Shown in pieces: positions 4,370 to 11,225 of a stretch of 40,959 nucleotides of DNA. A program made the translations under genes and the position numbers. Positions within the stretch are counted from its first letter, which is position 1. Each line of letters begins with the position of its first letter. A model generated the notes under the pieces. The model was not told the origin of the DNA, searched no databases, and saw nothing but the letters and a program-made list of their open reading frames with translations. This DNA comes from Mariniblastus sp. (GTDB lineage: Bacteria > Planctomycetota > Planctomycetia > Pirellulales > Pirellulaceae): assembly GCA_011523945.1 (NCBI GenBank), contig WTFU01000059.1, positions 1 through 40,959 of the forward strand, in the 5' to 3' direction.

Positions 4370-7300
4370 TTATCGCTGCACTGCTTCGGCTGAGTTCTGC
4401 TCGAGTATTTTGCGGTACAAAGTTGGAATAATCTTTTTGAAATTGCTAACCGCGGAATCCCAGTCCTCGAGAATCGCTGTGGCAACGGTCGACTCTGTGA
4501 ATTGAGCATGTTTTTCAATCAAGCTATGCAAGTCGTCCTTGTCATCTTGGCTTTCCACTGCGCCGATCTCAACCAGTTCGAGATTAAGATTGTTCAATAG
4601 ACGTTCGTTCGGGTCGTAGAGATAAGCAATCCCTCCGGACATCCCTGCCGCGAAATTCCGACCCGTTGGTCCAAGAATAACCACCCGTCCACCGGTCATG
4701 TATTCACAGCCATGGTCTCCAACCCCTTCGACGACGGCTACTGCTCCGGAATTTCGAACGGCAAAGCGTTCGGCAGCGACGCCGCGGAAATATGCTTCAC
4801 CAGAAGTTGCGCCATACAAGGCAACGTTTCCAATAATGATATTTTGTTCAGCGGCAAACTGTGATGTTTTCGGAGGGCGAACAACGATGCGACCGCCGGA
4901 CATGCCTTTGCCGACATAGTCATTCGCGTCGCCTTCCACTTGAATTGAAACGCCACCCGACAGGAACGCGCCAAGACTCTGTCCTGCGGATCCCTGGAAG
5001 TTGATGCAAATTGTGTTTTCAGGCAATCCGTCTGGACCGTGGGTTTTTACAACATGATGGCTCAAAATCGCACCTACGGATCGATCAGTATTCTTGATTT
5101 CTGACTGAATCTCTACACGTTGACGGGTTTGGATCGAATTTTTAGCTTCCTCTAGGAGTTTCCAGTCAAGCACGTCGTCCAGTGCGTGGTCTTGATCAAC
5201 CGTGCAATAAACCTGAACTCCGTCATGAAATCCAACTGCGGGGGCGAGTAGTTTTGAGAGATCAATTCCCTTCGCTTTCCAATGCTCAACTGCGTGGTCG
5301 ACATCAAGTGCGTCGACTCGCCCTACCATTTCATTGATTGAGCGAAAGCCGAGTTCCGCCATAATCTGCCGTGCTTCTTCAGCCACCATGAATAGGTAAT
5401 TAACAACATGCTCAGGTTTTCCCTTGAACTTTTTCCTTAGCTCAGTATCTTGAGTCGCAATCCCAACTGGACAGGTATTCAGATGGCATTTTCGCATCAT
5501 AATACAACCCATCGTGATTAACGGAGCAGTTGCAAACCCGTACTCTTCAGCACCGAGTAGAGTCGCGATTACGACGTCACGACCCGTTTTAAGTTGGCCG
5601 TCGGTTTGCAATCGTGTTCGACTGCGTAAGTCGTTCATTACCAGTGTTTGGTGAGTTTCGGCGATACCGAGTTCCCAGGGCATTCCGGCATGTTTAATGC
5701 TGGTTAATGGCGAGGCTCCCGTTCCCCCTCCTGAACCGGAAATTAGGATGTTGTCAGCATGCGCTTTCGCGACACCCGCTGCAATCGTTCCAACGCCAAC
5801 CTCGGAAACCAGTTTCACACTAATGCGTGCGGAAGGGTTCGCATTTTTTAAATCGAAGATCAACTGAGCTAGATCTTCAATCGAATAAATATCGTGATGG
5901 GGTGGAGGGCTGATTAGCGTAACCCCTGGAGTCGAACGTCGCGTATCTGCGATCGTTTGATTAACCTTGTGACCGGGGAGTTCGCCACCTTCCCCCGGTT
6001 TGGCCCCCTGTGCCATTTTGATTTGAATCTCATCGGCGTTGCTGAGATAGTAGGCGGTTACGCCGAATCTACCCGAAGCCACCTGTTTAATTGCCGAGCG
6101 GCGCAGATCTCCGTTTGCGTCCGCTTCAAAACGGTCGTAATTTTCACCACCTTCACCGGTGTTGCTTTTGCCCTCCAAACGATTCATGGCGATGGCCAAA
6201 GTCTCATGCGCTTCGCCTGAGATCGAGCCGTAACTCATTGCTCCGGTGCAAAATCGTTTTACAATTTCTTTAGCGGATTCAACCTGCTGAATCGGAATTG
6301 AGGTTCTCGATCGAAATTTTAGCAGACCGCGAAGATGGCATTCGCGAGCAGTCTGTTGATTAATGGCGTTTGAAAACCGTTTGTAAGCGTCAGGGTCGCC
6401 CGCCCGAGCTGCCTGTTGAATGTTTGCAATGTTTAACGGAGTCCACGCATGTTTCTCTCCGTCCTGCCGCCAGTGAACGGAGCCCTGTGTCTTCAGTTCA
6501 AGTACGGGGAGTTCAGAATTTGGTTTTTGAGTTGGGTATCCTAGCTCGTGTCGACGTAGTGCCTCACTCGATAATACTTCAAAGCCTACTCCCTCGATTC
6601 GACTTGCAGTGCCGGGAAATGATTTTTTAATCACATCCGAGTTTAGTCCAATCGCTTCAAAGATCCTTGCACCTTTGTAGCTCGCAAGCGTCGAGATGCC
6701 CATCTTAGCAAGAACCTTCAGCATTCCCTTATTCACGCCAGTCCGGTAGGCGGCAATGCACTGCTCCGGGGTTAATTCAGAATCAGGGGAAGAGGAATGA
6801 TGATCAATGATGGCTTCAAGTGCCAGGTAGGGATGGATTGCATCTGCTCCGAAACCGGTTAGGAGACAATGATGATGGACTTCTCGTGCCTCACCAGTTT
6901 CGACGGCGATTCCAATCCGCGTGCGAAGTTGTTTGTCCACCAAATAATGATGCACAGTACTAGTAGCAAGCAAGGCACTTAACGGCACTCGTTTCGGGCC
7001 AATTGCTCGATCGGAAAGAATTAGCATCGCGCAGCCATCAGAAATGGCGGACTCAGCTTCTTTGCAGATTCGTTTTAAGGCCATTGAGAATCCATCGGCA
7101 CCGTCCTCTTTATCAAAGGTAATATCGATGGATCGGCTTTTCCAGCCACGGTGGTCGAGGTTTTTGATGCCAGCCATCTGCTGGAAATCAAGGATCGGAT
7201 TATCCAGAAGTAGGCGGTTGCACTGTTTTTCGGTTGTTTCGAGTAAATTACCTTCAGGTCCGATATAACACTCGACCGACATCACAATCTCTTCACGGAT

Positions 7301-8908
7301 GGAATCAATTGGTGGATTGGTCACCTGTGCAAAAAGTTGAGCGAAATAGTCATATAACAAACGTGGCTTGTCACTCAAACACGCTAATGCTGCATCGTTG
7401 CCCATTGAAAGGATCGGATCCTTTTTTACTTTTACCAAGGGAAGCAACATGTATTTCATGGTTTCAGTGGTGTAACCGAATGCTTTCATTTGAGAAAGCC
7501 GCTCTGATCTCGAAAGCGGTGGGACTGCCTCCGATTTTTCCAACTGATCAAAAGTAATCCTTTGATTCTTCATCCACTGTGCATAGGGACGTCGGTTAGA
7601 AATTTCTGTTTTTAATTCATCATCGGCGACGATTCGTTTGTTTTCAAAGTCGACCAGGAACATCTTCCCTGGCTCTAGACGGCCTTTTTTGATTATTTTG
7701 GCAGGATCAATTTCCAGGACGCCAACTTCGCTTGCCATGACCACGCGATTGTCATCAGTGACGTAATAGCGGCTCGGCCGGAGACCATTTCGATCTAGGA
7801 CGGCCCCGATCATACGTCCGTCGGTAAATGAAATTGAGCTAGGCCCATCCCAGGGCTCTTGAAGACAGGAGTGGTATTCGTAGAACGCCCGTTTATCTTC
7901 AGGCATGGTTTGATGGTTTCGCCAAGCTTCCGGAATCATCATCATGACGACTTCGGGCAGGTCTCGCCCGGCCATCATTAGCAATTCCATTGCATTGTCA
8001 AATTCTCCGGAATCGCTGCATCCCTGCTCCGTTACAGGCATTACCGTTTTCAACGGTGCATTAAAAACATCGCTGGCCATCAATCCCTGGCGGGCAGCGA
8101 TCCAATTTCTATTTCCACGTAACGTATTAATCTCACCGTTGTGAGCCATCCATCGTAATGGCTGGGCACGAGACCAGTTCGGCAATGTGTTGGTTGAAAA
8201 CCGGGAGTGCACCATTGCAAGATGGCTTTCGTAATCCTCATCTTGCAGATCGACGAAAAATTGAGGCAACTGAGCCGTAGATAACATTCCCTTGTAAACA
8301 ATAATTCTTGAAGAGAGCGAGCACACATAGAACAAATCTGATGAATACATGCCGCTTGTACGTACCGATTTTGTTGTCGATTTTCGAATTTGATAAAGGC
8401 GGCGCTCAAAGTCTGCCTGGCTAATGCCGGCTTGTGCACCAATGAAAACCTGAAGAATCTTGGGCATGCTTCGAATGGCGGTCGGGCCTATCCCTGATCC
8501 TTCCACATCAATGGGAACCTCGCGCCATGCGATCAGTTTCTGACCAAATCGATTAGTGTTCTGTGCGAAAATCAGTTTGCACTTTTCCCGCTCCTCTTCA
8601 TCATTTGGAAGAAAGACATTTCCGACACCAATAAAAGGGAAATCAGTCGAGAAGCCGATTTGCTTTGCAAGCCTTTCGACCAATTTGGAAGGAATACCAG
8701 TTAGGATGCCTGCACCATCCCCCGTTTCTGGTTCGCAGCCGCAGGCGCCGCGGTGCTCCATTCTCGATAGAATCCCACACGCATCGACAACAATCTGTCT
8801 TGATGCGACTCCATCAATTTGTGCTACAAACCCAACGCCACAGCTGTCATGTTCGTAATCAGGGCTATAAAGCGTATTCTCCGCGGCAAACGGTTTCTGT
8901 GTGGTCAA
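4370..8908 (-). CDS. gltB: Glutamate synthase, large (alpha) subunit
   Basis: Large GOGAT subunit. The N-terminal type 2 glutamine amidotransferase domain exposes its nucleophile in HDSCGVGF (Cys23 from the chosen start), expected to become the mature N-terminus after propeptide removal. The central and FMN-binding synthase domains follow (segments GEGGE and SGSGGGTGASP), then the 3Fe-4S motif CIMMRKCHLNTC, and a C-terminal GXGXG beta-helix with repeated GG/GD turns. The preferred start is TTG at 8908 with AAGGAT about seven bases upstream, giving 1512 residues, the usual GltB size. The frame is open to a GTG at 9031, but those 41 extra residues do not look like GltB. It is cotranscribed with gltD. 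No glutamine riboswitch was recognised upstream. Confidence 0.97.
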   Translation of the reverse strand: MTTQKPFAAENTLYSPDYEHDSCGVGFVAQIDGVASRQIVVDACGILSRMEHRGACGCEPETGDGAGILTGIPSKLVERLAKQIGFSTDFPFIGVGNVFLPNDEEEREKCKLIFAQNTNRFGQKLIAWREVPIDVEGSGIGPTAIRSMPKILQVFIGAQAGISQADFERRLYQIRKSTTKSVRTSGMYSSDLFYVCSLSSRIIVYKGMLSTAQLPQFFVDLQDEDYESHLAMVHSRFSTNTLPNWSRAQPLRWMAHNGEINTLRGNRNWIAARQGLMASDVFNAPLKTVMPVTEQGCSDSGEFDNAMELLMMAGRDLPEVVMMMIPEAWRNHQTMPEDKRAFYEYHSCLQEPWDGPSSISFTDGRMIGAVLDRNGLRPSRYYVTDDNRVVMASEVGVLEIDPAKIIKKGRLEPGKMFLVDFENKRIVADDELKTEISNRRPYAQWMKNQRITFDQLEKSEAVPPLSRSERLSQMKAFGYTTETMKYMLLPLVKVKKDPILSMGNDAALACLSDKPRLLYDYFAQLFAQVTNPPIDSIREEIVMSVECYIGPEGNLLETTEKQCNRLLLDNPILDFQQMAGIKNLDHRGWKSRSIDITFDKEDGADGFSMALKRICKEAESAISDGCAMLILSDRAIGPKRVPLSALLATSTVHHYLVDKQLRTRIGIAVETGEAREVHHHCLLTGFGADAIHPYLALEAIIDHHSSSPDSELTPEQCIAAYRTGVNKGMLKVLAKMGISTLASYKGARIFEAIGLNSDVIKKSFPGTASRIEGVGFEVLSSEALRRHELGYPTQKPNSELPVLELKTQGSVHWRQDGEKHAWTPLNIANIQQAARAGDPDAYKRFSNAINQQTARECHLRGLLKFRSRTSIPIQQVESAKEIVKRFCTGAMSYGSISGEAHETLAIAMNRLEGKSNTGEGGENYDRFEADANGDLRRSAIKQVASGRFGVTAYYLSNADEIQIKMAQGAKPGEGGELPGHKVNQTIADTRRSTPGVTLISPPPHHDIYSIEDLAQLIFDLKNANPSARISVKLVSEVGVGTIAAGVAKAHADNILISGSGGGTGASPLTSIKHAGMPWELGIAETHQTLVMNDLRSRTRLQTDGQLKTGRDVVIATLLGAEEYGFATAPLITMGCIMMRKCHLNTCPVGIATQDTELRKKFKGKPEHVVNYLFMVAEEARQIMAELGFRSINEMVGRVDALDVDHAVEHWKAKGIDLSKLLAPAVGFHDGVQVYCTVDQDHALDDVLDWKLLEEAKNSIQTRQRVEIQSEIKNTDRSVGAILSHHVVKTHGPDGLPENTICINFQGSAGQSLGAFLSGGVSIQVEGDANDYVGKGMSGGRIVVRPPKTSQFAAEQNIIIGNVALYGATSGEAYFRGVAAERFAVRNSGAVAVVEGVGDHGCEYMTGGRVVILGPTGRNFAAGMSGGIAYLYDPNERLLNNLNLELVEIGAVESQDDKDDLHSLIEKHAQFTESTVATAILEDWDSAVSNFKKIIPTLYRKILEQNSAEAVQR

Positions 8909-9353
8909 AATACTATCCTTATCGATACGGATCCGTTCCTCGATTCCCGGGCTGCTGGTGAATTCAACACCGGAAAAACTGAGGTTTAGTGATAAACGCT
9001 TCGGAAAAAATAAGCAAACGTCCAAATCCACAACGGGACTGCATTTACCATTAAGCCCGTGTAACGGTTGTCCGGCACCAAAAAATTTGCCTTTTTGATT
9101 CGAACCCTAAGCTGCCCGTTCGTTTTGAGCCGGTATTCTTCTGGGGCATTGCTGCGGTGGAATCAACTTAAATCTACGAATTTAGCGTCCAGTTACGGGA
9201 CGAAGTCGAAAGCTTGAGCGAGACGAGGTTTGATGAATTGTTGCAGTAAGTATGGGATAATTTACAAAAATGAAATTTCAGACGTCTGGAAACGCAGATT
9301 TTGGCGTGTGTCAATATGTAGGCAATTGGAAATTCAAGTTAAAAGAGATTGTT
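8909..9353. other. Divergent intergenic region between gltB and the thioredoxin-like gene
   Basis: This stretch must contain promoters for both divergent genes. The 8909-9031 part stays open in the gltB frame but has no GltB-like sequence. I looked for sigma-70-like boxes and found none with convincing spacing. A GATTCGAACCC string near 9096 resembles a tRNA T-loop in reverse, but the flanking arms do not pair. An AAAGAG sits just upstream of the ATG at 9354. No terminator or repeat was seen. Confidence 0.4.
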
Positions 9354-10415
9354 ATGAATACCTCTGTTTCGCGTCGATTGAAAGTAGCCATTGGCATTCG
9401 AATTGTGATTGGAGTCGCTGTAATGACTACAGTCAGCAATTGTATTGCTCAGGGAAACTCCGAGCTCCCAAGCGGAATTGTGTGGCATGGCGTTCTCACC
9501 GATGGGCTTGCAGATGCAAAAGCGACTAATCGTCCAATCATGTTATTATCGGCGGCGCCACAATGTGCCGGAGTGCCTGGCATGTGGTGACCAGGAAAGC
9601 AAAATATGGACAGGAGTTTCTTGTCTAACGAAAAGGTAATTGAAGCATCTCGAAATTTCGTTTGTATACGCCTTGCGACTTATGAGGACGAAGCAGAAGC
9701 AGAGTTTTTGCGGACGGTCTACGTGGGAAGAACCGGTGATCTTGAGAACACCGTGTTTGTCTTAATGTCTCCCGACACGAAAGAAAACCTATGTCGACCC
9801 GGGCGTAGTCCCAATTTCGCGTTTCGATCACCCAACAGTCTTGCGGCTGAGATGAATAAAATCGCCGAACGATACGAAGTCACGGACACAAACGCGAATC
9901 CGATCCTTCCACAGCTTAAGGACGTCCGCTTAGGCTTAAATGTCAGTTCCTGTGACGGTTTACCTTCAGTTGTGTGCGTGGCAGATGGTAATAATCCCGC
10001 GGATTTAATGCAAAATGCACTCGCACCCATGGCGTATTCAGAGGAATTAGCTGGGAAGTTCGTCTATTCAACGACAACGGATGCTTCGATGCTGAATTCA
10101 GTCACCAATTATTTAGGCCAACCGGGAATCCTATTAATTGAGCCAGGGGATTACGGCTTGGATGGAAAGCTCGTTCAGTATTTTAGCCCATCGACAAAAA
10201 CAAGTGTGATAGAAAAGGCGCTAATCAATTACGCTAATTCGACGGGCAAGGTCACTAAAGAGCACTCTTCGCATGTGAGAACGGGAGCGAGAGAAGGGAA
10301 GACATGGGAAACGGAAATTCCCGTTGAGGATCGGAATTCGATCCAGGCACAACAGCGATCGAGGCGTTCTTCAGGTCGCGGCAGTTCGCGAGGCAGAAGG
10401 CCTGGCGGCAACTAG
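9354..10415 (+). CDS. Secreted thioredoxin-like protein, candidate selenoprotein (in-frame TGA at 9588-9590)
   Basis: One continuous frame of 353 codons interrupted by a single TGA at codon 79. The N-terminus (MNTSVSRRLK, then a hydrophobic stretch ending at AQG) is a Sec signal peptide. The start at 9354 has AAAGAG upstream. The region RPIMLLSAAPQC...MW-TGA-PGKQNMDRSFLSNEKV lines up with the thioredoxin-like pattern WCxxCKxMExxxxSDxxV: W precedes the TGA, sixteen residues separate it from the conserved V as in that family, and M, acid, R and S fall in register. The TGA therefore sits at the first redox cysteine; the second cysteine position is Lys. A hairpin just downstream fits a bacterial SECIS. 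The tail is basic and rich in R, S and G. Alternatives: recent nonsense mutation, sequence error, or reinitiation at ATG 9606 (AGGAA upstream), which would give a 269-residue product lacking the active site. Thioredoxin fold fairly sure; Sec is inference. Confidence 0.65.
9607..9627 (+). promoter_or_regulatory. Candidate bacterial SECIS hairpin downstream of the TGA codon
   Basis: The RNA can form an eight-pair stem: 9607-9614 with 9620-9627, including two G-U wobbles, closing a five-base loop AGUUU (9615-9619). The loop begins 24 bases after the UGA and has G at its second position. Bacterial SECIS elements are known to lie within the coding sequence just after UGA, with a small apical loop carrying a G in its first two bases about 16-37 bases downstream. 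Short hairpins are common by chance, so this supports but does not prove recoding. Confidence 0.45.
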
Positions 10416-10442
10416 AACCGCGTCCGAAATAACTCATCCTAG

Positions 10443-10470
10443 GGTGGCCTAATAACGGCCACCTTTTTTT
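10443..10470 (+). terminator. Rho-independent terminator after the thioredoxin-like gene
   Basis: A perfect seven-pair stem, GGTGGCC (10443-10449) with GGCCACC (10457-10463), a seven-base loop TAATAAC, then seven T. It lies 28 bases past the stop at 10415 and ends the plus-strand transcript before the convergent gene at 10503. Confidence 0.9.
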
Positions 10471-10502
10471 ATTTTCGGAAGATGAACCGGGAAGGAACGG
10501 AG

Positions 10503-11225
10503 CTACTTTTCTTGTTTCTCGAGCTCGCAGTTATTAAGGATTGAGATTTTCTGCCATATTTTACGAGACAAACCGGTTGTGAGCGTTTCCAACTCTGATG
10601 CCGCTGCCAATGCGACTCCATCTTCAAACTCTTGAGCATAAACGGCAGCTACTTTTCCAGTTAAGGAAAGCATTTCACTGCAATAGTCCAAGTATCGCCT
10701 GAGTTCAAAAAGAGTTAATCCTAACTCCGGTGATTCGCCAGTCTTTGGGTATTGAGTCTTTTGTGAAATGCGATGAGGATCTTTTGTTAACTGATGCATG
10801 TCGATTACGTGGGCAATAGAACGTAGTTCATGAAGTGCTTTTAAAGCCCTTGCCCTTTTGTACCTCACTTCAATCGACAAAAGGAAGAAGATTGCGGCGC
10901 CGATAAGAACAATATCGTTCAGGCCCGCCTCCATCAGAGTCACAACTGATTCAAGGTCCAATTGTTGGTCGAGATCAGATTGAAAATAAAAGAACGGAAC
11001 GATTGAGCAAACAAAAAGGATCAGGCAAAACGCCCAGGTCACGTAGCGAATCCAAATTACCGGTTTTCCAATCCACTCGGCTCGATCTTCCATGTTTTTT
11101 GCAATGACTGACAGTTGTCCGCACACTCGATTTAAGCCCGAGTCAGGAAATCGCTCTTTGATTCGTTGATTCAATTTTCCAATTGTTTCAACAATCAGTC
11201 TGGGTTGCAGGGTTTCGAGAGACAT
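10503..11225 (-). CDS. Hypothetical membrane protein with two transmembrane helices
   Basis: I do not recognise the family. The 240-residue protein has a soluble N-terminal part of about 60 residues (MSLETLQPRL, charged and helical), a hydrophobic segment near 67-87 (WAFCLILFVCSIVPFFYF) and a second near 108-122 (IVLIGAAIFFLLSIEV). It then has a long, mostly helical cytoplasmic-looking tail containing KRARALKALHELRS and a basic-to-acidic pattern consistent with helical hairpins. No catalytic motif is visible. It ends in the gap before the plus-strand terminator, so it is convergent with the thioredoxin-like gene and follows the uridine kinase gene on the same strand with about 50 bases between, possibly sharing its transcript. 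Confidence 0.75.
   Translation of the reverse strand: MSLETLQPRLIVETIGKLNQRIKERFPDSGLNRVCGQLSVIAKNMEDRAEWIGKPVIWIRYVTWAFCLILFVCSIVPFFYFQSDLDQQLDLESVVTLMEAGLNDIVLIGAAIFFLLSIEVRYKRARALKALHELRSIAHVIDMHQLTKDPHRISQKTQYPKTGESPELGLTLFELRRYLDYCSEMLSLTGKVAAVYAQEFEDGVALAAASELETLTTGLSRKIWQKISILNNCELEKQEK

Follow-up and report, generated by a model that had tools for sequence, protein, structure and literature searches.

A TGA codon conserved in every copy examined marks what looks like a new, possibly selenium-obligate, family of thioredoxin-like selenoproteins in Planctomycetota and other bacteria

Protein disulfide isomerases carry CxxC or CxxS sites and combine active with motif-less domains, the AGR proteins lack a full CxxC, and neither AGR2/AGR3 nor the C-terminal domain of DsbD is known to contain selenium. 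In bacteria, selenocysteine (Sec) occupies the first Cys position of a thioredoxin fold in the UxxC selenoproteins (Trx and TlpA/DsbG types) and in the VPGUxxT selenoproteins (NF041382/NF041383; OS_HP5 in PMC13188914), which are present in Planctomycetota and have a Thioredoxin_7-like first domain with a VPG loop before the Sec codon. For nearly every selenoenzyme the Cys homologues are the more abundant, as the same source states, so the purpose of Sec is hard to state; a family without any Cys form would be a natural test case for reactions that require selenium. Searches for Cys/Sec pairs require Cys homologues, and the homology module of deep-Sep uses them too, according to the available parts of PMC13188914 and PMC12013277. 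Families lacking Cys forms are thus a blind spot of such searches.

The locus described here lies in a 40,959-nucleotide stretch of Mariniblastus sp. DNA (contig WTFU01000059.1), referred to below as the window, and its features are collected in Table 1. The coordinates and the translation bear out what the first-pass annotation had read there, namely a frame of 353 codons holding a single in-frame TGA, which leaves 78 codons before it and 274 open codons after it; the TGA (...GVPGMW-TGA-PGKQNMDRSFLSNEKV) comes directly after a Trp, and a Val stands sixteen residues past it. Both flanking frames are on the other strand, so the gene stands alone: on the left is an opposite-strand gene at 4370-9031 that we take to be glutamate-synthase-like, and on the right a reverse-strand frame at 10503-11225. 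The terminator of its own that had also been proposed is present as a hairpin with a T tail, but such sites are no more frequent in the region than expected by chance (two found in a scan, against 1.9 expected in shuffles). Hydrophobic N-termini recur among the relatives when judged by eye, and together with the N-terminus of the window protein they suggest that the product is probably exported from the cytoplasm.

Table 1. Features of the predicted selenoprotein gene and its surroundings, in window coordinates.
Feature	Position	Strand	Basis or remark
Predicted selenoprotein gene, 353 residues including Sec at codon 79	9354..10415	+	ATG start at 9354; TAG stop at 10413-10415; conserved family
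Probable signal peptide, residues 1-33, cleavage near AQ|G	9354..9452	+	By eye from the translation
First thioredoxin-like domain (predicted), Thioredoxin_7-like, holds Sec, residues ~42-173	9477..9872	+	
Codon of Cys71, eight residues before Sec, candidate resolving residue	9564..9566	+	Conserved in 71/73
In-frame TGA (codon 79), very probably read as selenocysteine 79	9588..9590	+	Homologue comparison
Codon of Lys82, at the place of the second Cys of CxxC	9597..9599	+	Residue counts; alignment to VPGUxxT proteins
SECIS hairpin, nine-pair stem, GUU apical loop at 9616-9618	9607..9627	+	Folding, covariation, covariance model
Second thioredoxin-like domain (predicted), without CxxC, residues ~186-298	9909..10247	+	Model and Foldseek
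Terminator-like hairpin and T tail, 3' of the gene	10441..10475	+	Hairpin at 10441-10465

Relatives were sought in GTDB contigs with the part after the TGA alone (alignment A2), the site itself being left out to avoid bias. A contig scan by one peptide pattern, which relatives without that pattern could escape, matched 178 stretches, of which 176 were confirmed and the best 80 kept, and TGA stands at the same codon in all 80 of these loci. Separately assembled MAGs share it, among them L088-L093, whose downstream part is 80-93% identical to that of the window. Because 80/80 loci carry the TGA, separate assemblies included, the comparison indicates that it is neither chance nor an assembly error, the latter being one of the ways in which the first-pass annotation had thought it might be explained away. 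A genome survey gave the same picture. The window protein matches 58 of 392 Planctomycetota genomes at E 0.001, and a profile (A1) made from 33 of the 55 copies separates the family from everything else: full-length members score at least 308 bits, partial members, most of which lie at contig ends, at least 78, a 51-residue fragment (G148:C275, model positions 253-303) scores 37.5, and the next class, mostly generic thioredoxin-like stretches, starts at 36.2. By the profile table the family is present in 53 of the 392 genomes, and all 55 copies that reach the Sec site have TGA; the site is missing from the pieces in G332, G253 and G343, from one in G186, from the G148 fragment and, for the frameshifted G052 copy, from its downstream half. 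In 288 Verrucomicrobiota genomes there were three strong matches, all with TGA (WUPGK, FUPGY and FUPGY), and the remaining matches scored at most 25.2 bits, one of them (L178) with a TGA in a different motif. No Cys form of the family was found among the matches in the 392 and 288 genomes, for which the top few candidates per genome were scored, or among the best 80 of the 176 loci; Trp, Arg and Gln, which the first-pass annotation had named as residues to look for, are likewise absent from every homologue examined that reaches the site. The two collections overlap, several genomes being the same MAGs as loci, and together hold 135 loci with 102 distinct 48-base stretches. We also noted a family copy (L070, in G052:C33) that is split over two frames shortly after the Sec site, through either assembly error or decay.

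The apparatus for Sec insertion, whose presence had been put forward as a check, was found in full in the genome of the window (91.9% complete, 1.4% contamination): selA (588 bits), selB (370 bits) and selD (259 bits) each score above their family cut-offs, and a tRNA-Sec with anticodon UCA scores 67.4 bits, also over its cut-off, the same tRNA being named tRNA-Sec (anticodon tca) by ARAGORN, with which Rfam concurs. Across the Planctomycetota selA is over cut-off in 239 of 392 genomes, and it goes with the family, being present in 50 of the 53 family-bearing genomes (judged by best E, all 1e-117 or better) versus 189 of the 339 others (Fisher one-sided p 4.2e-9, a value that takes related genomes as independent). 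The remaining three family-bearing genomes are all draft assemblies, G082 and G332 having no selA and G280 a fragment below cut-off; tRNA-Sec is over its cut-off of 47 bits in each, at 68.8 in G082 and, weakly, at 48.7 in G332 and 49 in G280. Outside the phylum, or where no phylum label is given, selA is over cut-off in all 12 carriers checked. As a separate matter, two selA matches contain internal stops (G326:C70:13854-15215, one TGA and one TAA; G395:C26:86621-87922, one TGA), for which alignment overrun, decay or assembly error could account.

These data bear on the possibility that the TGA is read as Trp or another standard amino acid, through a variant code or near-cognate read-through. 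Such decoding would leave the frame intact, and a Trp does adjoin the TGA. Yet TGA acts as a normal stop elsewhere in the window, ending 5 of the 28 open frames of at least 150 codons (a count that includes the part of the selenoprotein gene after its own TGA), no homologue examined has an ordinary codon at the site, and a complete Sec apparatus accompanies the gene, with selA again in 12/12 of the carriers that have another phylum label or none. With the covarying hairpin described next, this makes decoding as a standard residue extremely unlikely.

A hairpin follows the TGA at +19 to +39 counted from its T, starting 16 bases past the UGA, with the consensus UGGACAGGA GUU UCCUGUCC[G/A]. Bacterial SECIS elements are expected to have G then U in the loop, a set spacing from the UGA and an energy below -7.5 kcal/mol, by the limits given in PMC13188914, and the window hairpin falls within them with 9 pairs, a GUU loop, 25 nt from UGA and -9.3 kcal/mol. 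Over 53 genes the 30-base hairpin segment has a mean energy of -11.6 kcal/mol; 51 of the 53 are within the energy limit, and two are weaker than -7.5 kcal/mol. Compared with synonymous versions of the same protein, with codons drawn from each gene's own, the segment has a mean z of -2.4, with values below zero in 52 of 53 genes and below -1.5 in 38, whereas control stretches 48 and 96 bases further on have means of 0.13 (53 genes) and -0.16 (52 genes); the window hairpin has z -4.36, at -9.3 kcal/mol versus -2.2 for its recodings. Pairing is kept in 90.7% of cells over the 102 distinct copies versus 28.9-55.6% with the 3' side slid by 1-6 bases, and seven copies retain six or fewer of the nine pairs; L013 and L055, which lie outside the motif pattern used for the recoding and upstream-Cys sets, are included in this count. 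In a 42-row alignment (A3, in which L004 was entered as 6 bases, its cells as gaps) 89.7% of cells are paired versus 28.7-52.8% when slid by 1-3 columns, six of the nine pairs show two-sided change, and the covariation score was reached by none of 500 shuffles, which ignore the relatedness that the slides keep. The encoded residues change along with the stem, the Arg87/Leu90, Gln87/Trp90 and Glu87/Phe90 types each preserving it.

A covariance model was made from 44 of the 80 loci (A5), without the window, its nearest kin (L088-L094) and the poor pairers L109, L149 and L153. Run on the window it finds the hairpin site at 54.4 bits (E 7.6e-21), the next match being at 10.6 bits; over the whole of its own genome the next-best match scores 24.5 bits. 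That second match (C64) we regard as chance, for it skips the hairpin and lies inside the long frame of another gene, and the following four matches in this genome came with no convincing gene.

A true stop at the TGA, which would leave a short peptide of 78 codons and a downstream part begun at the internal Met85, has in its favour an ATG six codons past the TGA in the window (9606), where a mechanically called ORF of 269 aa begins. However, Met85 occurs in just 70 of the 102 distinct copies, the first predicted domain takes in sequence on either side of the TGA, all copies examined carry TGA at the site, and the hairpin is constrained beyond the protein sequence, and we consider termination highly improbable. 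Codon 79 (UGA) instead very probably specifies Sec; the Sec insertion first suggested on the strength of the frame thus gains support from the sel genes, from TGA in all copies examined and from a covarying SECIS hairpin. SelB and tRNA-Sec would decode UGA 79, directed by that hairpin.

Prediction and alignment place the product among proteins of thioredoxin fold. AlphaFold, with a set of 54 sequences (A4, the window and 53 of the 80 loci, also used for residue invariance; a further alignment, A6, holds the window and 49 of the 80), gave pLDDT 95.0 and pTM 0.92 with two alpha/beta domains, the Sec residue lying directly before a helix, and Foldseek matches to PDI, DsbD and AGR proteins support a thioredoxin fold. 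With the whole protein Foldseek returns PDI-like multi-domain proteins that superpose poorly (rmsd 13-22 A); a single domain is matched by AGR2/AGR3 and by the DsbD C-terminal domain (DsbD-gamma), with TM by target of 0.54-0.64. The second domain modelled alone (pLDDT 89) has weak thioredoxin matches, the best at E 0.002 and none at 0.001, with TM by target of 0.34-0.69 among the first 30 Foldseek matches listed. At the sequence level, Pfam Thioredoxin_7 (PF13899) is matched by 53 of the 54 members at E 0.01 (best 9.2e-8), the window protein scoring 18.2-18.6 bits against a gathering score of 27; a sequence search of solved structures gave nothing below E 0.28. We describe the product as two tandem thioredoxin-fold domains, as shown by prediction and alignment. 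Long N-terminal extensions occur in L110, L117, L120, L123-L126, L151 and L134/L016, some with low-complexity stretches carrying LTxxQ-like motifs and one with an in-frame stretch that looks like a planctomycete cytochrome c domain; L132, from a MAG labelled Proteobacteria, has 437 residues after Sec, some 170 beyond the usual.

The usual motif of the family is C-x7-U-P-G-[K/Y] with Trp before Sec. The positions invariant in the 54 sequences include Trp78, the Sec position, Pro80, Cys71, Cys104, Arg106, Tyr110, Glu111, Glu115, Asn132, Arg151 and Trp318. A profile-profile alignment with VPGUxxT proteins (hhalign; A7, 13 rows; probability 97.4%, over the first domain only) puts Sec79 on their first Sec/Cys and Lys82 on their second Cys, in agreement with the earlier assignment of the TGA to the first Cys of a CxxC and of Lys to the second. 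Position 82 is Lys in 87, Tyr in 12 and Phe in 3 of the 102 distinct copies, so that the two redox residues three apart that define CxxC are not present. Prediction and alignment thus show Sec at the N-terminus of a helix, in place of the first Cys of CxxC, and the second Cys lost. A placement of Sec79 on the second Cys, produced by gapped local HMM alignment of a few distant relatives (L085, L172), was rejected, ungapped pairing and hhalign favouring the first. Thr133 (51 Thr and 3 Ser in the 54) aligns with a Pro of the VPGUxxT proteins, which suggests that the cis-proline site is now Thr.

Because there is no Cys three residues on and Cys71 is in the loop leading to the helix, Cys71 is the natural partner of Sec. 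Of 73 distinct upstream segments 71 have it, and the two that do not (L068 and L069) have their upstream Cys one and three residues away in the same loop. On fold and residues we tentatively propose, at a little short of even chance, that the protein is a monoselenol redox enzyme acting outside the cytoplasm and resolved by Cys71. Sec would attack a peroxide, a disulfide or another oxidised substrate, Cys71 would resolve the selenenyl intermediate by forming an Se-S bond within the protein, which a partner, for instance one of DsbD type, would reduce; the motif-less second domain may bind substrate, like the b domains of protein disulfide isomerases. A plausible though less probable reading has the enzyme as a Sec-dependent peroxidase or reductase resolved by an outside thiol, with Cys71 structural only: without its second Cys the site resembles those of one-Cys enzymes, the upstream Cys is displaced in the divergent L068 and L069, and Cys104, another Cys that never varies among the 54 aligned proteins, is found again in distant thioredoxin-like relatives. 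The near-constancy of Cys71 and the retention of a Cys in the same loop by both exceptions weigh against this reading.

Gene neighbourhoods were compared over the 80 loci with flanks of up to 6 kb, clustered by BLAST and judged by eye from one example per cluster, and no conserved neighbour hinting at a substrate was found in them; the chemistry proposed above is for that reason argued from fold and residues. Of the 31 frames (from 27 loci) in the largest cluster, most represent the upstream half of the gene itself, 20 of them ending at the TGA, and one fused frame probably drew them together with other proteins. The other clusters were set aside as functional partners, since they look like local synteny of one lineage or like large families at scattered distances.

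By record title most of the 80 loci come from Planctomycetota MAGs, Pirellulaceae and Mariniblastus among them, and the other labels are Verrucomicrobiota, Eremiobacterota, Obscuribacter, another cyanobacterium-labelled record and one Proteobacteria. The distribution is patchy, since none of the 8 other sampled genomes of the window's own taxonomic family has a family-strength match; one of the eight, G353, has a strong selA and lacks the gene. In a midpoint-rooted tree of 54 rows the window groups with L089 (Pirellulaceae) and L091 (Mariniblastus) at support 100/99, and three Verrucomicrobiota rows join two planctomycete-labelled rows at 100/100. L159 and L163 (Melainabacteria/Cyanobacteriota) form a group inside the larger half of the tree, as do L136 (Vulcanimicrobiota), L133 and L140. 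These placements suggest lateral spread of the gene.

Since the relatives examined keep TGA and no Cys version was found, this looks like a family in which sulfur has not replaced selenium. For a bacterial selenoprotein, Cys homologues are the rule without being a requirement. One account, which we think nearly as likely to be right as wrong, is that of an obligate-selenium family: a secreted monoselenol enzyme of thioredoxin fold whose reaction is beyond sulfur, with Sec selected in every known copy, such that lineages giving up Sec decoding would lose the whole gene and not swap in Cys, and laterally moved copies would persist only in Sec-decoding hosts (by label Planctomycetota, Verrucomicrobiota, Vulcanimicrobiota/Eremiobacterota and Melainabacteria). 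Further families of this kind may have been overlooked, above all in Planctomycetota, because their genes would be truncated wherever annotation takes each TGA for a stop.

Among weak planctomycete thioredoxin-like relatives we noted an in-frame TGA at the first Cys of CxxC in L076, L077, L083 and L084, with motifs UMLC, UGAC, UPPC and UGFC, and UMGC in a second L084 frame; L178, from Verrucomicrobiota, has a thioredoxin-like frame with a UNNG motif, and some weak profile matches in Planctomycetota also hold one TGA. Sequences of this kind hint at further Sec-containing thioredoxin-like families in Planctomycetota.

Set against known families, the gene looks, from its sequence, like a new selenoprotein family of the thioredoxin-like kind with unusual, possibly obligate, use of Sec. 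Pfam gave no match over cut-off for the window protein and NCBIfam none for the six proteins scored, the window protein included. Table 1 of PMC13188914, an inventory of 119 prokaryotic selenoprotein families (2026), has no row matching motif and architecture, consistent with the first-pass remark that this architecture was not known from described selenoproteins. In the open-access literature as available no description of the family was found, and the supplementary candidate table of PMC4807772 could hold an earlier mention. A diverged member of a catalogued family, VPGUxxT or Trx7/PDZ, would account for some weak signals: at E 0.01 NCBIfam matches Trx7/PDZ (NF041199) in 21 of the 54 members (best E 2.4e-5) and the two VPGUxxT types in 2 each (best 3.9e-6, for NF041383), a VPG loop before Sec is common to many members, and hhalign aligns the first domains with high probability. 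Against this, the six proteins score far under the curated cut-offs (at most 14.7 bits versus 275 for NF041383 and at most 14.9 versus 300 for NF041199), the first domain alone aligns while the second half of VPGUxxT differs, and VPGUxxT retains its second Cys and has Cys forms; we therefore hold membership in a catalogued family to be very unlikely.

VPGUxxT is the closest comparison, sharing the Thioredoxin_7-like first domain, the VPG loop and Sec at the first Cys position. It is over cut-off in 31 of the 392 Planctomycetota genomes (L185-L198; several matches are listed with two TGAs), and its second half (CFWxGExxLG...VEVxFDP) looks to us like methionine sulfoxide reductase A. It has x-x-Cys after Sec and also occurs in Cys forms (L189, L190, L195), and its second half does not align with that of the new family, which has a two-residue insert (x-Trp) before Sec, Lys, Tyr or Phe in place of the second Cys, a second domain that is Trx-like and no Cys form among the copies examined. 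Trx7/PDZ is alike in its weak Thioredoxin_7 similarity, but its motif as listed in PMC13188914 is CxxU and it has a PDZ part, neither of which is seen here. AGR2/AGR3 and the DsbD C-terminal domain share the fold of the first domain but are single-domain, and the sequence similarity to AGR is not significant (E 0.36 or worse). ERp44, yeast PDI and QSOX1 likewise combine several thioredoxin-fold domains, active and motif-less, but are eukaryotic and arrange them differently, as the rmsd values over long alignments show. The bacterial UxxC selenoproteins, finally, have the thioredoxin fold and Sec at the first Cys position in common with the new family, but theirs, as given in Table 1 of PMC13188914, have a Cys three residues on.
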